The position numbers and the translations under genes are program-made. This document shows positions 8,377 to 20,553 of a stretch of DNA of 20,553 nt, piece by piece. The notes below the pieces were generated by a model, which saw only the letters and a program-made list of their open reading frames with translations, had not been told where the DNA came from and did not search any database. The DNA is taken from the IMG/VR virus record IMGVR_UViG_3300042988_001181, positions 1-20,553 of that record; one strand, 5' to 3'. Numbering within the stretch: position 1 is the first letter of the stretch; each line of letters opens with the position of its first letter. The stretch comes from a virus.

Positions 8377-8829
8377 ATGACCTACCGTCCGATTAGCAAT
8401 CCCGGCGAGACGCTGTACATCTCGCCGACGCCCACGGGCACGCCGACGCTCGAAATCCTCGGCATCGAGGCCATGCCGTCGTTTGGCCCGGAGGCCAAGG
8501 AAGTCGATGTCACGACGATGCGCGACACCGCGAAGGTGTTCACGGCGGCGGCGCTCGACGACAACGGCAGTCTGCAAATCAAGGGGTTCTGGAGCAACCA
8601 GGACGCCGGGCAGCAGATGCTGAAAACGGCGCAAGCGGCAAAAACCGCGTACAATTTCAAGCACACGCTGCACGATGCCGCTCAGCTCGGGCTGACCAAC
8701 AACACCACATTCACGTTTTCGGCGATGGTGCTGACGTTCAAGACGGACGGCTCCAGCAAAGGCGGCGAGAAAATGTTCACGGCTCAGTTGCGCATCACCG
8801 GCGCCATTACCGAAACCGTCGCGTCTTAA
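8377..8829 (+). CDS. Major tail tube protein
   Basis: 150 residues following a strong GAGGAG ribosome site (about 8366-8371). It is a beta-rich protein with the layout of siphovirus tail-tube subunits: N-terminal strand region NPGETLYISPTPTGTPTLEILGIEAMPSFGPEAKEVDVTTMRDTAKVFTAAALDDNGSLQIKGFW, a helix near QDAGQQMLKTAQAAKTA, then strands FTFSAMVLTFKTDG and MFTAQLRITGAITETV that match the lambda gpV-like N-domain pattern. Hexameric rings of it stack to form the tail tube. It is correctly placed just before the tail assembly chaperone and tape measure. One inverted copy of the intergenic hairpin element follows its stop. Confidence 0.88.
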   Translation: MTYRPISNPGETLYISPTPTGTPTLEILGIEAMPSFGPEAKEVDVTTMRDTAKVFTAAALDDNGSLQIKGFWSNQDAGQQMLKTAQAAKTAYNFKHTLHDAAQLGLTNNTTFTFSAMVLTFKTDGSSKGGEKMFTAQLRITGAITETVAS

Positions 8830-8850
8830 TAGGCTCGCTCGCGCTCGCGC

Positions 8851-8896
8851 GCCTCGCATCCGCGAGGCTTCTGCCCGCTTAGCCGCGGGCCCCGAA
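8851..8896 (-). repeat. Double-hairpin intergenic element, copy A (inverted)
   Basis: Read on the minus strand this copy has hairpin 1 GCCCGC-ggctaa-GCGGGC (plus-strand arms 8873-8878 and 8885-8890) followed by hairpin 2 with a 7-bp stem GCCTCGC/GCGAGGC and a GGAT loop (plus-strand arms 8851-8857 and 8862-8868). It fills the gap between tail tube and chaperone genes. On the plus strand CCCC-GAA-GGGG-TTTT at its edge (8890-8904) also holds the purine-rich ribosome site of the next gene. Confidence 0.8.
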
Positions 8897-8906
8897 GGGG
8901 TTTTCC

Positions 8907-9575
8907 TTGATAAATTCCAATAAACCGCATCCCGCGCACGGCGTTACGATTGAGATCGGCGGCCGTGCGCGCACGCTGCGCGGCACGTTCGCGGCGTCGA
9001 TCGCCATCGAGCAGGAGTTCGGCTCCATATTCGAGTTGGGCCGCCAGGTGATGAGCCGCGAATGCAGCGTCGAGCGTCTCGCCGACGTGCTCGCCGTCAT
9101 CCTGGTGGACGCCACGCCGGAGGAGATCGAGGCGCATTTCGACGAGGTCGGCATCGGCGGCATCGTGACCGAGGTCGGCGCGGTGCTGACGCAGATGCTC
9201 GTTGGTTTCCGCGCCATCAGCCGGGAGGCGGAAAAGTCCGGGATCACCGAAAACCCTCCGCTGGCGGCTCCGGTGGAAACTCCGGCGGGGCGCAAGGAGC
9301 GGGCGGACAAGGGCAGGCCGCGGGGGCCGAGGACGGCGAAAGCGACGGATGTCTCCCCTGGGGCGATCTCATCGGCGGCGCCTATCGTCTCGGCATCATG
9401 CCCGAGCAATTCTGGCGAACCACTCCCTATGAATTCGCCTGCGTCTGGCGCGCTGCCCGGCCTGGCTCTGTTGGAGCCGAGCGTCCAGCCGATGAACGGC
9501 GCCCAGCAGCCGACCCCGCCGAGCGAGCCGCAGAGCTACGCTCTTTTTACCGATCCCGTCCAGGGCACCGCGTGA
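8907..9575 (+). CDS. Tail assembly chaperone, upstream frame (gpG-like)
   Basis: 222 residues from a TTG start at 8907, placed 6 bases after GAAGGGG; no in-frame ATG occurs before residue 48. Residues about 10-110 (ITIEIGGRARTLRGTFAASIAIEQEFG, LADVLAVILVDATPEEIEAHFDEVGIGGIV) match the gene-transfer-agent TAC_11-type chaperone (PF11836). These bind the tape measure and are absent from the finished tail. After about residue 110 the frame becomes Pro/Ser/Ala-rich and low-complexity, while the -1 frame carries a recognisable second chaperone domain. The natural products are probably this G protein and a longer G-T fusion made by -1 frameshifting. The residues after the shift point look like non-selected overlap, although the frame stays open to 9575. 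Confidence 0.85.
   Translation: MINSNKPHPAHGVTIEIGGRARTLRGTFAASIAIEQEFGSIFELGRQVMSRECSVERLADVLAVILVDATPEEIEAHFDEVGIGGIVTEVGAVLTQMLVGFRAISREAEKSGITENPPLAAPVETPAGRKERADKGRPRGPRTAKATDVSPGAISSAAPIVSASCPSNSGEPLPMNSPASGALPGLALLEPSVQPMNGAQQPTPPSEPQSYALFTDPVQGTA
9230..9254 (+). other. Candidate -1 frameshift region of tail assembly chaperone
   Basis: In the reading frame of the upstream chaperone, G-GAA-AAG occurs at 9230-9236 and C-GAA-AAC at 9248-9254. In each, the A-site codon can re-pair after a one-base backward slip (AAG or AAC to AAA); the P-site match is imperfect. They lie between the end of the first chaperone domain and the -1 frame domain. Which, if either, is used cannot be decided from sequence alone. 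Confidence 0.4.
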
Positions 9576-9664
9576 ATTCGAGCACTCAACCTGGGGCCCA
9601 TTTCGACGTAAATGGGCAAATGCACGGCGCGGATACGCCGGGCGAGGTAAAGCATGGCCAATAA
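9236..9664 (+). CDS. Tail assembly chaperone, -1 frame extension (gpT-like, TIGR02216-type)
   Basis: This frame runs -1 relative to the upstream chaperone and ends with TAA at 9662-9664, inside the tape measure start. It encodes LPWGDLIGGAYRLGIMPEQFW followed by RTTPYEFACVWRAARPG (about 9353-9460), which I recognise as the short TIGR02216/TAC_6 (PF09550) tail assembly chaperone. No ATG, GTG or TTG lies close upstream in this frame; the nearest ATG (9062) would prepend an Arg-rich shadow sequence, and the internal ATG at 9398 would cut the domain. A Gly-rich linker (GGSGGNSGGAQGAGGQGQ) joins it to the first domain. It is therefore probably translated only as a fusion, of about 250 residues if the slip is at 9236. 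The left boundary given is provisional. Confidence 0.72.
   Translation, partial: VRDHRKPSAGGSGGNSGGAQGAGGQGQAAGAEDGESDGCLPWGDLIGGAYRLGIMPEQFWRTTPYEFACVWRAARPGSVGAERPADERRPAADPAERAAELRSFYRSRPGHRVNSSTQPGAHFDVNGQMHGADTPGEVKHGQ
9592..9653 (+). repeat. Double-hairpin intergenic element, copy B
   Basis: Hairpin 1 is GCCCATTT (9596-9603), loop cgacgt, AAATGGGC (9610-9617), an 8-bp stem whose inner pairs differ from the other copies but remain paired. Hairpin 2 is CGGCG (9625-9629) and CGCCG (9636-9640) around GGAT, with a C-A mismatch at the loop base. The element ends in GGGCGAGGTAAAGC, which serves as the ribosome site of the tape measure gene. Confidence 0.8.
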
Positions 9665-11636
9665 CGTCGGCGGCACGATCGGGATTGACGGCGACGTTTC
9701 CGGCCTCAAAAAGGCGTTGGACGACGGCCGCAACGCGATGTCGGGTTTTGAGGCCGCGGCCGCGCAATCTCTGAAAAACGTCGACAAATCGCTGGCGGAT
9801 CTCACGGGCGCCATGTCGAAACTCGGCGAGGCGAGCAACACGTTCACGGCGGCGATCACCGTGCTCGGCGCCGTCGGTATCGGTGGCGGCATGCTGGCGC
9901 TGTACAAGGAGCTGAAACAAGCGGTCGCCGAGGTCGCTGAAATATCGGAGAACGCGGCGAAACGAGGCATTTCCCCGGAATTTCTCCAGGAAATGGGGTA
10001 TGCCGCGAACGAGTTCGGCGTGAAAACGTCGACCACGAACGCGGCACTGGCGGAGTTTTACAAGAAGGTCTCGGAGATACGGATCGAAGGTTCGGCGGCG
10101 GCGACGTCTCTGGGGGAGATGAACGCGGCGTTGCTCGCGCAAATACGTGCGTCGAAGGACCAGCGCGAAGCTTTTATGGCGACTGCAAACGCTATCCACG
10201 ACACCGAAAGTGCCACGGATCGCGTGAAACTGACGACATTCATGTATGGCAGCGCCAACGCTGAACTGGTGTTTGCGCTCGGCAGGGGCGGCGATGCGCT
10301 GGAAATGTATGCTGAAAAGGCGCGCGCCGCGGGCGTTATTCTGAGCAAAGAGGTCACCGAGGAGGCGCGGCGGCTCACAGGTGTGTTGCAAGAACAGAAA
10401 ACGGCACTTTCCCGCTGGGCAGCGGAGACCGAGGTCTCCATGGCGAAACACGGCGCGATTTTATTCGGCTCAGAGTCGATGCGGATAAAGGCCCTGGATA
10501 CTGACGCGTTAGAAAGAGAAGTGGAAATATTCAAATCTAAAGTACAAGAATTAAAGGAAAAGATTAAATCGGTTAAAGATGAAACAGAGATCGAAGTTAG
10601 GGATTATAAGTACACTGGCGATCCGTTAGATTTTGCAGCCAAACTAAATTATACACTGACAGTGCTAGCCGGGAATTACTCTAACGAGATAAAAGGAGAA
10701 CACGTAAAAATTCGATCAGAGCGGGCTGAGATCGAAAAACAGATCCAGCAATTCGAAAATTTTATCAAAGAGGCCAATGCGCAGCTAGAGGCGCGCAAAA
10801 CATGGAAATCCGATGTCGAGGCCGTCACATTGCGTGACGTGGGTGGAAGCGCCGCTGCTGGTACCGCTGCCGCCAACACCACCGCCGCCGACAAATGGTT
10901 CGAGACGATGACCCTGAAGGCGCTGCGCGATCAGGGCGATTTTTACGCCGCCATCGAGTTGCAGCGTCAGATGGATCTGCAGCAGTTCGACAAATACGTC
11001 GAGAAGCTCGGCGACGCCTGGGAGAAGCAGGCCGAGGCGCGGCTCGCCATCGAGGCGAAATACGCCGCCGAGATGCGCAAGGCGTTCGACAAGGAGTACG
11101 TCGCGCCGGTGTCTCAGGCGATCTCTTCCGATCTGGAACGTGCGTTTTCGAGCTGGATGCAGAAGGGCAAAATGGATTGGCGCGACCTCGCCAACAGCAT
11201 CATCCAGGACACCGCGCGGATTGCGCTGCGCATGGCCGTGTTGCAGCCGCTGTTCGGCGGCGGCTCGACCGGCGGCACGGGCGCGTTCGGCAGCATGATC
11301 AGCGGAATGTTCGGGCCGACCGCCAGCGCCAACGGCAACGTGTTCGACGGCGGCAATCTGGTCGCGTTTGCCGATGGCGGTATCGTCGATCGCCCGAGCA
11401 TATTCGGGATGCGCGACGGAAGCACGGGCCTCATGGGCGAGGCCGGTCCGGAGGCGATATTGCCGCTGGCGCGCGGCAGCGACGGCCGTCTCGGCGTGCA
11501 GGCTGGCGGCGGCGCACAGCCGATCAATGTGCATTTCACGGTCAACGCCACGGACGCGGAAAGTTTCCGCCGTTCCGAGGGACAAATGTCGGCAATGCTG
11601 CGGCGGATGGTGAGCCGCGGCGAGAGAAGTAGTTAG
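9654..11636 (+). CDS. Tail tape measure protein
   Basis: 660 residues; sets tail length and, in related phages, takes part in DNA ejection. The start follows GAGG by 7 bases. The N-terminal part (IDGDVSGLKKALDDGRNAMSGFEAAA) is helical, with a hydrophobic stretch at residues about 65-85 (AITVLGAVGIGGGMLALY). Residues about 280-380 are a Lys/Glu-rich coiled coil (LEREVEIFKSKVQELKEKIK) encoded by visibly AT-richer DNA. The C-terminus has the lambda-family signature DLERAFSSWMQKGKMDWRDLANSIIQ, IALRMAVLQPLFGGG (about 490-540) and FADGGIVDRP...GLMGEAGPEAILPL (about 570-605; PF09718-like). At about 1.5 angstrom per residue a tail near 100 nm is expected. It is flanked by + strand copies of the hairpin element. 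Confidence 0.94.
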   Translation: MANNVGGTIGIDGDVSGLKKALDDGRNAMSGFEAAAAQSLKNVDKSLADLTGAMSKLGEASNTFTAAITVLGAVGIGGGMLALYKELKQAVAEVAEISENAAKRGISPEFLQEMGYAANEFGVKTSTTNAALAEFYKKVSEIRIEGSAAATSLGEMNAALLAQIRASKDQREAFMATANAIHDTESATDRVKLTTFMYGSANAELVFALGRGGDALEMYAEKARAAGVILSKEVTEEARRLTGVLQEQKTALSRWAAETEVSMAKHGAILFGSESMRIKALDTDALEREVEIFKSKVQELKEKIKSVKDETEIEVRDYKYTGDPLDFAAKLNYTLTVLAGNYSNEIKGEHVKIRSERAEIEKQIQQFENFIKEANAQLEARKTWKSDVEAVTLRDVGGSAAAGTAAANTTAADKWFETMTLKALRDQGDFYAAIELQRQMDLQQFDKYVEKLGDAWEKQAEARLAIEAKYAAEMRKAFDKEYVAPVSQAISSDLERAFSSWMQKGKMDWRDLANSIIQDTARIALRMAVLQPLFGGGSTGGTGAFGSMISGMFGPTASANGNVFDGGNLVAFADGGIVDRPSIFGMRDGSTGLMGEAGPEAILPLARGSDGRLGVQAGGGAQPINVHFTVNATDAESFRRSEGQMSAMLRRMVSRGERSS

Positions 11637-11644
11637 GGAAGTTG

Positions 11645-11708
11645 TTCGGGGCCCGCAATCCTTTGCGGGCAAATAGGCGGCGCGGATGCGCCGACTGAGG
11701 AGAGAAAA
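11645..11708 (+). repeat. Double-hairpin intergenic element, copy C
   Basis: Begins TTCGGGGCCC. Hairpin 1 is GCCCGCAA (11651-11658), loop TCCT, TTGCGGGC (11663-11670). Hairpin 2 is CGGCGC (11678-11683), loop GGAT, GCGCCG (11688-11693). It is followed by ACTGAGGAGAGAAAA, the ribosome site of the next gene. With copy D it brackets the 11709-12068 gene in opposite orientation. Confidence 0.82.
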
Positions 11709-12068: not shown

Positions 12069-12125
12069 TATTTGTCTCGCCCGGCGCATCCGCGCCGTGC
12101 ATTTGCCCGCTTAGCCGCGGGCCCC
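12069..12125 (-). repeat. Double-hairpin intergenic element, copy D (inverted)
   Basis: On the minus strand it reads as a full element: hairpin 1 GCCCGC-ggctaa-GCGGGC (plus-strand arms 12105-12110 and 12117-12122), spacer AAATGCA, hairpin 2 CGGCGC-GGAT-GCGCCG (plus-strand arms 12082-12087 and 12092-12097), then GGGCGAGACAAATA, nearly the pre-start sequence of copy F. A further GCGCGC/GCGCGC hairpin (12127-12132, 12143-12148) follows on the plus strand. Confidence 0.82.
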
Positions 12126-12170
12126 GGCGCGCATACTTCGTTGCGCGCGTGAATACGGATAGGGCTGCGA

Positions 12171-17960: not shown

Positions 17961-18020
17961 TTCGGGGCCCGCGGCTAAGCGGGCGAGTGCACGGCGTGGA
18001 TACGCCGGGCGGGGCAAATA
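17961..18020 (+). repeat. Double-hairpin intergenic element, copy F
   Basis: Begins TTCGGGGCCC. Hairpin 1 is GCCCGC (17967-17972), loop ggctaa, GCGGGC (17979-17984). Hairpin 2 is CGGCGT (17992-17997), loop GGAT, ACGCCG (18002-18007), a T-A pair replacing the C-G pair of copies C and D. It ends GGGCGGGGCAAATA directly against the hub start codon and closely matches inverted copy D over its whole length. Confidence 0.82.
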
Positions 18021-20553
18021 ATGGCCACGTTAGCACTATCCACCATCGGCGGCGCCGTCGGCGGTATGATCGGCGGCCCGATGGGCGCCATGGCTGGCCG
18101 CGCCGTAGGTGCGCTCGCTGGCGCCTATATCGATCAATCGCTGATGAGCAGCAGCGGCCAGGAGAGCACGCGCAACGTCCCGAAGGTGAGCGACGTTGCC
18201 GTCACCTCCGCCGCCGAGGGCGACGCCATTCCCCGTCTCTATGGCCGTGCCAAACTCGCCGGGCAAATCATCTGGGCGACGTATCACGAGGTCGAGGTCA
18301 CGACCAGCGACAGCTCCGGATCCAGCAAGGGGATGGGCAGCAGCTCATCATCCACGACGCAGACCACCTACGCCTATTACGCGAATTTTGCCGTTGCACT
18401 GTGCGAGGGCGAGATTACCCGCATCGGCCGTATTTGGGCGGACCGCAAGGAGGTTGACCTCACCGGCATCACCTACCGCATCTACACCGGCACCGACAGC
18501 CAGGCGCCCGACAGCCTCATCGAGGCGAAGGAAGGTGCGGGCAATGCGCCCGCATTCCGCGGCGTCGCCTATATCGTGTTCGAGCGTTTCCCGCTCGCCG
18601 ATTATAGCCGCCGTGTGCCGTCGTTCGAATTCGAGGTGTTTCGCTCGGTCGACGCTCTGGAGTTCGAAATTCAAGGCGTCACCATGATCCCCGCCGCCGG
18701 TGAGTTTGCATACTCGCCGACGGAAGTGCGCGTCGATGACGGCGCGGGCACCAGCTACGCCGAGAACCGCCACGCCGCCGCCGCCGCGAGCGACTGGTCG
18801 GCCTCGCTCGATCAGCTCCAATCGACGCTGCCGAACGCGGCCGCGGTGTCGCTGTTCGTGGCGTGGTTCGGCGCCGATCTGCGCTGTGCGAGCTGTACCA
18901 TCAAGCCGAAGGTCGATGACGCCGCCAAAGCGGGGACCACGATCCCCTGGGCCGTCGCTGGCCTCACGCGCGCGACCGCTGAGACCACCTCCCTCGACGA
19001 CGGCCGTCCGGCCTACGGCGGCACGCCCTGCGACGCGACCGTCATCGCCGCGATCCAGGATATGCACACACGCGGCCTCGACGTGCTGTACACGCCGTTC
19101 ATCCTGATGGACATCCCGTCCGGTAACACGCTGACCGATCCCTACACCGGCGCGGGCACGCAGCCCGTCTACCCCTGGCGCGGCCGCATCACCTGCTCGC
19201 CTGCGCCTGGCGTCTCGGGCACGCCGGACAAAACCGCCGCGGCCGCAACGCAGGTGAACGCGTTCTACGGCACGGTCACGGCCGCGCATTTCACGGTGGC
19301 GGCTGGGGCTGTCACCTACACCGGCCCAGCGGAATGGACATTTTCCCGCTTCGTGCTGCACAATGCTGCCCTTTGTGCGGCTGCGGGGGGCGTCGAGGCG
19401 TTTGTCATTGGCTCGGAAATGCGCGGTCTCGCCTGGGTCCGAGACAGCGCCTCGACGTATCCGTTCGTGGCGAAGTTGCAGGCGCTCGCCGCGCAGGTGG
19501 CGATCCTGCTGCCGGGCGCGCAGCTCACCTATGCCGCCGACTGGAGCGAGTATTTCGGCCACCATCCGAGCGACGGTTCGGGCGACGTGTATTTCCACCT
19601 CGATCCGTTGTGGAGCGACGCCAATATCGACGCGGTGGCCATCGACAATTATTGGCCATTGAGCGACTGGCGCGATGGCTACACGCATCTCGACTATCTC
19701 GACGGCGTGCGTGACTGCCACGACCTCGCCTATCTGCAGGGCAACATAGAGGGAGGAGAAGGCTATGACTGGTATTACGCGAGTAGTTCTGACCGGGACG
19801 CGCAAACACGTACGCATATTGCGGATGGTGGCGGAAAGCCTTGGATATACCGTTATAAAGACGTCCGTTCTTGGTGGGGAAACCTACATTATAACCGTCC
19901 CGGAGGAACTGAAAGCGGCTCGGCAACTGCTTGGGTCGCTAAATCCAAACCTATCTGGTTCACAGAGCTAGGGTGTCCGGCAATAGACAAGGGGTCAAAT
20001 CAGCCGAACGTCTTTTACGATCCGAAATCCTCAGAGAGTTTTTACCCGTATTACTCCAGCGGCGCGCGCGACGACCTGCAGCAGCGCCGCCATCTGCGGG
20101 CGTTCCTGGAGTGGTACGCTGCCGACGCCAACAATCCCGCGTCCGACGTCTACACCGGCCGTATGGTCGATGTTGCCCGCATCATGGTCTACACCTGGGA
20201 TGCGCGGCCGTATCCGGCATTTCCTGGGCTGTCGTTCGTGTGGTCGGATGCTGCGAATTGGCCGCTCGGCCACTGGCTCACCGGCCGCACCGGCGAGGCT
20301 CCGCTCGGCGAGACCGTCACGCAATTGCTGTGGGATTATGGATTTTCGGATTTCGACGCCGGAGCGCTCTCCGGCAGCATGTCCGGCTATGTGATCGACA
20401 ACGTGATGTCTGCGCGCGACGCGTTGCAGGCGCTGGAGACGGCGTTTTTCTTCGACACCTTCGAGAGCCAGGGCAATGTGAAATTCGCGCATCGCGGCCG
20501 GGCTGGCGAGGTGGCGACCGTCGATGCGCTCGATCTCATCGACAGCGGCGGCG
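18021..20553 (+). CDS. TIM-barrel tail hub / host-specificity protein (GTA gp15-like), 3' truncated by window
   Basis: The frame is open from ATG 18021 to the window end (844 codons); the protein continues beyond. The N-terminus is a Gly/Ala-rich hydrophobic segment (TIGGAVGGMIGGPMGAMAGRAVGAL) followed by VTSAAEGDAIPRLYGRAKLAGQIIW, typical of this family. Residues about 420-720 form the GTA TIM barrel (PF13547-like), with YAADWSEYFGHH (about 503-515), IEGGEGYDWYYAS, WGNLHYNRPGG and IWFTELGCPAIDKG (about 645-658); the two Glu residues in ADWSEY and FTELG resemble glycoside hydrolase catalytic acids. The visible end (YVIDNVMSARDALQALETAFFFDTFESQGNVKF) is the start of the phage-tail_3 hub domain (PF13550-like). 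It forms the tail-tip hub that contacts and penetrates the envelope. Codons from about 19740 to 20050 differ markedly from the rest. Confidence 0.95.
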   Translation, partial: MATLALSTIGGAVGGMIGGPMGAMAGRAVGALAGAYIDQSLMSSSGQESTRNVPKVSDVAVTSAAEGDAIPRLYGRAKLAGQIIWATYHEVEVTTSDSSGSSKGMGSSSSSTTQTTYAYYANFAVALCEGEITRIGRIWADRKEVDLTGITYRIYTGTDSQAPDSLIEAKEGAGNAPAFRGVAYIVFERFPLADYSRRVPSFEFEVFRSVDALEFEIQGVTMIPAAGEFAYSPTEVRVDDGAGTSYAENRHAAAAASDWSASLDQLQSTLPNAAAVSLFVAWFGADLRCASCTIKPKVDDAAKAGTTIPWAVAGLTRATAETTSLDDGRPAYGGTPCDATVIAAIQDMHTRGLDVLYTPFILMDIPSGNTLTDPYTGAGTQPVYPWRGRITCSPAPGVSGTPDKTAAAATQVNAFYGTVTAAHFTVAAGAVTYTGPAEWTFSRFVLHNAALCAAAGGVEAFVIGSEMRGLAWVRDSASTYPFVAKLQALAAQVAILLPGAQLTYAADWSEYFGHHPSDGSGDVYFHLDPLWSDANIDAVAIDNYWPLSDWRDGYTHLDYLDGVRDCHDLAYLQGNIEGGEGYDWYYASSSDRDAQTRTHIADGGGKPWIYRYKDVRSWWGNLHYNRPGGTESGSATAWVAKSKPIWFTELGCPAIDKGSNQPNVFYDPKSSESFYPYYSSGARDDLQQRRHLRAFLEWYAADANNPASDVYTGRMVDVARIMVYTWDARPYPAFPGLSFVWSDAANWPLGHWLTGRTGEAPLGETVTQLLWDYGFSDFDAGALSGSMSGYVIDNVMSARDALQALETAFFFDTFESQGNVKFAHRGRAGEVATVDALDLIDSGG

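Follow-up and report, generated by a model that had tools for sequence, protein, structure and literature searches.

A probable conserved programmed -1 frameshift in the tail chaperone gene of a phage with a gene-transfer-agent-like tail, with A_AAC_CCT as the most likely slip site

Results and discussion

In a tailed phage whose tail is of the gene-transfer-agent-like (GTA-like) type, the tail chaperone gene is very likely a G/GT-type gene, in which a programmed -1 frameshift, most probably at the heptamer A_AAC_CCT (9251-9257), would join two chaperone domains encoded in overlapping frames. This is very probably a known kind of programmed -1 frameshift that has been conserved, and its class of slip site looks new. 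A frameshift joining the two domains had been proposed in the initial annotation of this DNA, and gene order, the missing start codon and about 200 homologous loci support it. From sequence comparison we infer slippage itself, its efficiency, its exact site in the window (the whole stretch of DNA analysed, a virus record of 20,553 b), how the tRNAs pair and that the products act as chaperones.

Reading frames and domains of the tail chaperone gene

The frame-0 open reading frame (8907-9575; this and the other features of the gene lie on the + strand) started at TTG 8907, the sole ATG, GTG or TTG of that frame between the stop at 8880 and position 9000, and encoded a short product of 222 aa, with AAGGGG located 6 nt upstream of the start. 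The AAGGGG, a possible ribosome binding site, belongs to CCCCGAAGGGGTTTT (8890-8904), which lies just before the TTG and resembles an intrinsic terminator. Residues 13-98 (8943-9200) matched Phage_TAC_11 (PF11836) with 29 bits, above the Pfam gathering cut-off of 27.8, confirming the TAC_11-like domain that had been assigned to this frame.

The -1 frame was open from 8954 (stop at 8951), its reading frame extending from ATG 9062 to a stop at 9664, and both frames were stop-free over 340 b (9236-9575). It carried the Phage_TAC_6 (PF09550) core domain at about 9353-9469 (26.3 bits, gathering cut-off 23.4, model positions 2-39 of 58), which was also detected by an HMM built from homologues (E = 4.8e-6). 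This domain had been described as TIGR02216-like; TIGR02216 itself (rcc01693 family) gave only a weak match of 20.4 bits, far short of the NCBIfam cut-off of 56.1. Between 9062 (within the TAC_11 domain) and 9398 (within that of TAC_6), the -1 frame contained no ATG, GTG or TTG, so the second domain lacks a usable start, as first noticed. The -1 extension (9257-9664, stop included) kept residues that align with conserved TAC_6 positions to about 9570. By reading-frame arithmetic, the predicted fusion comprises 117 frame-0 codons and 135 -1 codons, i.e. 252 aa.

The chaperone frames were located between the genes for the major tail protein (8377-8829) and the tape measure (9654-11636), followed by the distal tail gene. 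The distal tail protein model TIGR02217 matched the window with 301 bits (cut-off 136.65 exceeded), and the RcGTA tape measure model with 137.2 bits, below its cut-off of 220. As in G/GT-type genes, two overlapping frames in a -1 relation lie just 5' of the tape measure gene, the second frame has no start of its own, and a slippery site is conserved in the overlap (N_NNC_CCT or X_XXA_AAR in homologues, A_AAC_CCT in the window). Near gene junctions, five sites also shared a repeated palindrome, at most about 58 nt long and present in both orientations (8844-8896, 9609-9660, 11665-11693, 12069-12126 and 17961-18027; the arms of the best pair were 90% complementary), one copy overlapping the 3' end of the -1 reading frame.

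The AlphaFold2 model of frame-0 residues 1-122 had a mean pLDDT of 79.9. Foldseek searches of the chaperone models against PDB and BFVD returned no match at E<=0.001; the BFVD neighbours of the TAC_11 model include proteins named tail assembly chaperone, none at E<=0.001. PDB profile matches (TAL-effector, RecA and others) were rejected; in none of them did a stretch pass by itself.

Homologous loci

In viral contigs, no relatives were recovered with the window chaperone, major tail protein or tape measure as protein query; in a phage collection, the chaperone had no match, the tape measure partial matches only and the major tail protein a single weak match. Since direct searches gave no relatives of the chaperone, the anchor chosen was the distal tail protein, with the best 80 loci in viral contigs and the best 80 in genome contigs. 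Profiles were built from 14 TAC_6 and 10 TAC_11 domains, then iterated. Of the 160 anchor loci, 55 had both domains, including 19 from the viral 80, and the other 105 had neither at E 0.01. A search of 297 genomes from a single bacterial order found TAC_6 in 176; the matches listed provided 147 additional loci (three genomes already counted were omitted), all 147 with both domains. The total was therefore 202 homologous loci and the window (203), or 160 loci after dereplication at 85% identity. A later class-wide sample covered 289 genomes, 31 with TAC_6, from which 29 loci were examined, three of them from genomes already counted.

The TAC_11 domain of the window is remote: the homologue TAC_11 profile missed it, its position being taken from Pfam, and its tree branch was very long. 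Slip-site homology is therefore drawn from context rather than from close kin.

Registers and start codons

TAC_6 was in the -1 register relative to TAC_11 in 180 of the 203 loci, in the +1 register in 14 and in the same frame in nine. All nine same-register loci had a stop between the two domains, none being a single-ORF fusion; they include the Albimonas loci L106 and L158, where TAC_6 has its own ATG. Three start-less loci were found outside the -1 register (L007, L281 and L295). One of them, L007 (4010-4585), a close relative of L006, has TAC_6 in the TAC_11 frame because of a 4-nt insertion relative to L006; this may reflect a defect, faulty assembly or some other mechanism.

An assembly error or a decayed gene is a most improbable source of the frame change in the window. 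Such an origin is compatible with the window being a single virus contig, with the register shift by insertion between L006 and L007, and with the return of the frame-0 codon score after 9450 (see below), as expected from two compensating indels. It is opposed by the recurrence of the same -1 register in 180/203 loci, named isolates included, by the conserved TAC_6 residues that the -1 frame keeps to about 9570, and by the lack of any single-ORF TAC_11-TAC_6 fusion among the same-register loci.

An ATG, GTG or TTG was present within 60 nt upstream of TAC_6 in 71 of the 180 -1 loci, including those where the ATG overlaps the TAC_11 stop (ATGA), and absent in the other 109. On a FastTree tree (145 labelled rows), frameshift and start types changed 25 times, compared to 47.3 in shuffles, with seven changes forced by well supported branches. 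The seven well supported independent pairs on the tree were too few for a test (median p = 0.5).

This interchange of types, together with the ATGA overlap of several relatives, would suit a TAC_6 protein made separately, with coupled re-initiation at a start of non-standard type. In the window, such re-initiation is nevertheless very unlikely, as there is no ATG, GTG or TTG within reach in front of TAC_6, and a frame-0 stop 220 nt past the TAC_6 start rules out ordinary stop-start coupling.

Probable slip sites in the homologues

All 109 start-less -1 loci had an in-frame C_CCT (87) or, where this was lacking, A_AAN (22) in the permitted stretch, A_AAN being a broad criterion, compared to 30 of the 71 -1 loci with a start codon (C_CCT alone: 25/71), where linkers are shorter; these counts, like the codon and motif counts below, ignore phylogeny. 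With a narrower list, 81 of the 82 dereplicated start-less -1 loci, window included, had a site: 17 had A_AAC_CCT (the window and 16 homologues), 30 another N_NNC_CCT upstream, 17 C_CCT at the TAC_6 start, nine X_XXA_AAR, five A_AAC_CCC, two a site at +4 only and one another A_AAR, while L177 had none. Among the 30 tightest brackets (21-63 nt), 26 contained C_CCT or A_AAR and three A_AAC_CCC (L296, L307 and L310), and the remaining one was again L177. In the class-wide sample, 11 of 13 new start-less -1 loci had C_CCT or A_AAR, five of these only at the TAC_6 start, whereas neither C_CCT nor A_AAN was found in the permitted stretch of the other two (L330 and L341).

In 19 of the 109 start-less loci, sites occurred only at the TAC_6 start (PFPW). 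As coding itself favours CCCT there, these loci were tested apart. In the dereplicated start-less loci without another site, the codon before FPW was CCC in 16 of 18, the other two being non-Pro; in own-start loci, CCC accounted for nine of 29 Pro codons, with 44 more non-Pro codons. Restricted to Pro codons, the difference was significant (16/16 vs 9/29; p = 4e-6).

Codon usage and phase pointed to the same motif. In the 81 dereplicated start-less -1 homologues, CCT made up 61 of 1838 linker codons but only four of 7836 codons in the TAC_11 domain (Fisher, 1e-39), and in these linkers it was preceded by C in 47 of 61 cases, compared to 32/182 for other Pro codons (5e-17). The linkers contained A_AAC_CCT 15 times, and 19 of their 61 CCT codons belonged to a perfect X_XXC_CCT. 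Phase mattered in both controls: CCCT occurred 47 times in the TAC_11 frame and three and three times out of frame, and AAACCCT 15 times in frame and never in the two other phases. Loci with a clear start of their own showed a smaller CCT excess (7/438 linker codons vs 5/4602 TAC_11-domain codons), which may mean that some of these loci also frameshift, or did so until recently. Downstream RNA structure at the slip sites showed no excess over the upstream control in 45 loci (mean z -0.28 and -0.58, respectively), and an RNA hairpin was rejected as stimulator.

Overall, the site commonly conserved in start-less homologues appears to be N_NNC_CCT, with A_AAC_CCT as its recurrent perfect form and X_XXA_AAR as a minority. 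Comparison of homologues, as suggested in the initial annotation, pointed mostly to a motif other than the proposed GGAAAAG, which is a minor candidate, exactly matched before the stop of one homologue, L020.

Candidate slip sites in the window

The slip region of the window reads GCG GAA AAG TCC GGG ATC ACC GAA AAC CCT CCG. Two heptamers had been proposed, GGAAAAG (9230-9236) and CGAAAAC (9248-9254), both correctly placed and rightly called imperfect, but neither is the commonly conserved site. The proposal overlooked AAACCCT (9251-9257), a perfect X_XXY_YYZ heptamer in frame 0 that overlaps CGAAAAC by four bases. The only other + strand copy of AAACCCT in the window is also in frame, in an upstream gene (859-865). 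In codon shuffles of the 50-codon linker, any perfect in-frame heptamer arose in 32% and X_XXC_CCT in 1.5%; the window by itself is thus weak evidence, and the decision falls to the homologues. As their sites are mostly N_NNC_CCT, AAACCCT (9251-9257) is taken as the probable site in the window. Its context also recurs in relatives (C_GAA_AAC_CCT_CCG in L277, C_GAA_AAC_CCT in L120 and L278, and T_GAA_AAC_CCT_CCG in L347). Isolates with a start-less GTA-like cluster carrying A_AAC_CCT or CGC_CCT include L120, Rhizobiales bacterium YIM 77505, and the Bosea L113. A slip at C_GAA_AAC would give the same predicted junction peptide as one at A_AAC_CCT, SGITENPSAGG...

For G_GAA_AAG, an A-rich site like those of lambda type, a slip would yield EAEK-VR-DHR-KPSAGG... 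at the junction, a possibility that we regard as unlikely. In E. coli, no tetramer is more slippery than A_AAG (PMC4066793), G_GAA_AAG directly precedes the stop in L020 (G_GAA_AAG_TAG), as G_GGA_AAG does in other homologues, and GAA AAG is likewise found upstream of AAC CCT in phage 103231 (L313). In L313, however, a -1 frame stop (TGA) overlaps GAA AAG; moreover, P-site re-pairing from GAA to GGA is imperfect, while A_AAC_CCT is perfect and commoner among homologues.

The other candidate, equally unlikely, is C_TCC_CCT (9353-9359), a second in-frame C_CCT at the TAC_6 start, with the linker then encoded by frame 0 and a predicted junction of ...ATDVSPWGDLIGGAYR. Frame 0 of the window would allow such a slip, as it runs on to a stop at +220 relative to the TAC_6 start, the furthest of the 203 loci. 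C_CCT is found at the TAC_6 start in many homologues, with the CCC bias described above in those without another site (16/16), and the site is compatible with codon composition: the best frame switch within the linker fell near 9315, with 9258 and 9357 about equal. Composition was accordingly set aside as a locator of the slip, as it was not decisive and did not single out 9255. Against C_TCC_CCT, the heptamer is imperfect, in most such homologues the motif (NNC CCT TTC) stands two codons earlier, and the +4 site is the sole one in just two dereplicated loci. In favour of A_AAC_CCT, the frame-0 stop precedes TAC_6 in 17 of the 21 start-less loci with this heptamer, so that a slip at the TAC_6 start is impossible in those loci. 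A_AAC_CCT is retained as the most probable site.

Coding in the overlap

A dual-coding stretch of about 340 bases had been proposed. Both frames are indeed open over 9236-9575, and coding by frame 0 past the TAC_6 core is suggested by codon composition, which is the weaker point of the reconstruction. With a codon score calibrated leave-one-gene-out, 8907-9254 scored as frame 0, 9258-9317 was ambiguous, 9321-9449 scored as -1 (none of 925 frame-0 scoring windows was so low), and 9450-9572 scored as frame 0 again, with a value of 18.3 that none of 931 scoring windows truly coded in -1 attained. This frame-0 tail (9450-9575) overlaps a -1 frame in which the TAC_6 residues that are conserved (W, FW, E, L, L, P) can be aligned as far as about 9570, and a helix is placed in that stretch of the -1 frame by a model of modest quality (mean pLDDT 69.4). 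At 9450-9572, both frames may be in use, or the frame-0 signal may be a relic. Dual coding could not be argued from the open frame itself, as the chance that frame 0 stays open across the TAC_6 region is about 0.24.

Comparison with known systems

The lambda chaperone slips at an A-rich site, G_GGA_AAG, and lambda gpG and gpGT belong to protein families other than TAC_11 and TAC_6. G/GT frameshifting is described as widely conserved in long-tailed phages, and the window gene resembles lambda gpG/gpGT in its predicted products, a short tail chaperone and its -1 extended form, acting on the tape measure protein (PMC5009743). It differs from lambda in its C_CCU site and in a frame 0 that continues about 320 nt past the slip.

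In the Rhodobacter capsulatus phages described, the chaperone genes are said to have a frameshift as a rule (PMC8601537). The Rhodobacter phages RcOceanus and RcRudolph have GTA-like tail genes, as the window does, and a chaperone annotated as a two-piece join before the tape measure, with the second frame at -1; their chaperone sequences nevertheless look unrelated by eye, and RcRudolph has G_GGA_AAC before the stop. In phiCbK-like Caulobacter phages, the chaperone frameshift is reported at AAAAAAC or GGGAAAC (PMC3556154). The 21 heptamer patterns pursued in PMC4066793 include no N_NNC_CCU, while the SEA-PHAGES data presented in a tool paper contain all four bases at each position of three-three motifs (PMC10885494), which gives C-rich sites some precedent.

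A parallel in arrangement is Bacteriophage sp. 103231 (MW091529, L313), with a TAC_11-like domain followed by a TAC_6-like one at -1 and the series GAA AAG ... AAC CCT TGA. Unlike in the window, its frame 0 ends immediately behind the slip site. The chaperone (L313:5354-5916) is annotated as two hypothetical proteins; A_AAC_CCT immediately precedes the first stop, and the ATG assigned to the second protein lies well inside the -1 frame.

By family assignment, RcGTA also resembles the window, since its g10 shares PF11836 (PMC11409702) and its second tail chaperone, rcc01693, belongs to the TIGR02216 family. In contrast to the window, the two are treated as separate genes in accounts of GTAs (PMC11409702, PMC9765227). 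A literature search, with most subscription journals outside its scope, found no publication on a GTA chaperone frameshift, chromosomal GTA-like clusters included, nor on an AAACCCU slip site or conserved use of N_NNC_CCU.

Proposed mechanism and implications

Under the proposed mechanism, most ribosomes starting at TTG 8907 would stay in frame 0 and produce the 222-aa TAC_11 protein, while a minority would slip one base back into the -1 frame and add the Gly-rich linker and TAC_6, giving the 252-aa fusion. At A_AAC_CCT, tRNA-Asn would shift from AAC to AAA, while the Pro tRNA would exchange CCU for CCC with equal or improved A-site pairing; a host Pro tRNA with a GGG anticodon would favour this second move. 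If the analogy with lambda gpG/gpGT holds, the tape measure protein would be coated by the short form, and the role of the fusion would be to bring in tail tube subunits.

Taken together, we judge it rather probable, as a combined claim, that a large alphaproteobacterial tail-chaperone family, found in phages and chromosomal GTA-like clusters, slips at N_NNC_CCU, best in the form A_AAC_CCU, using the rare Pro codon CCU; that it has repeatedly switched between frameshifting and start/stop coupling; and that the frame-0 tail is coding in this phage, with about 320 nt dual-coded. If so, a C-rich class of slip sites, passed over by a systematic heptamer search (PMC4066793), would be added to those known. 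In many GTA-like clusters, the second tail chaperone, commonly regarded as a small gene of its own, would often be no more than the end of a frameshift product. Annotations would change accordingly, and the ratio of short to fused chaperone would become a testable factor in tail assembly.
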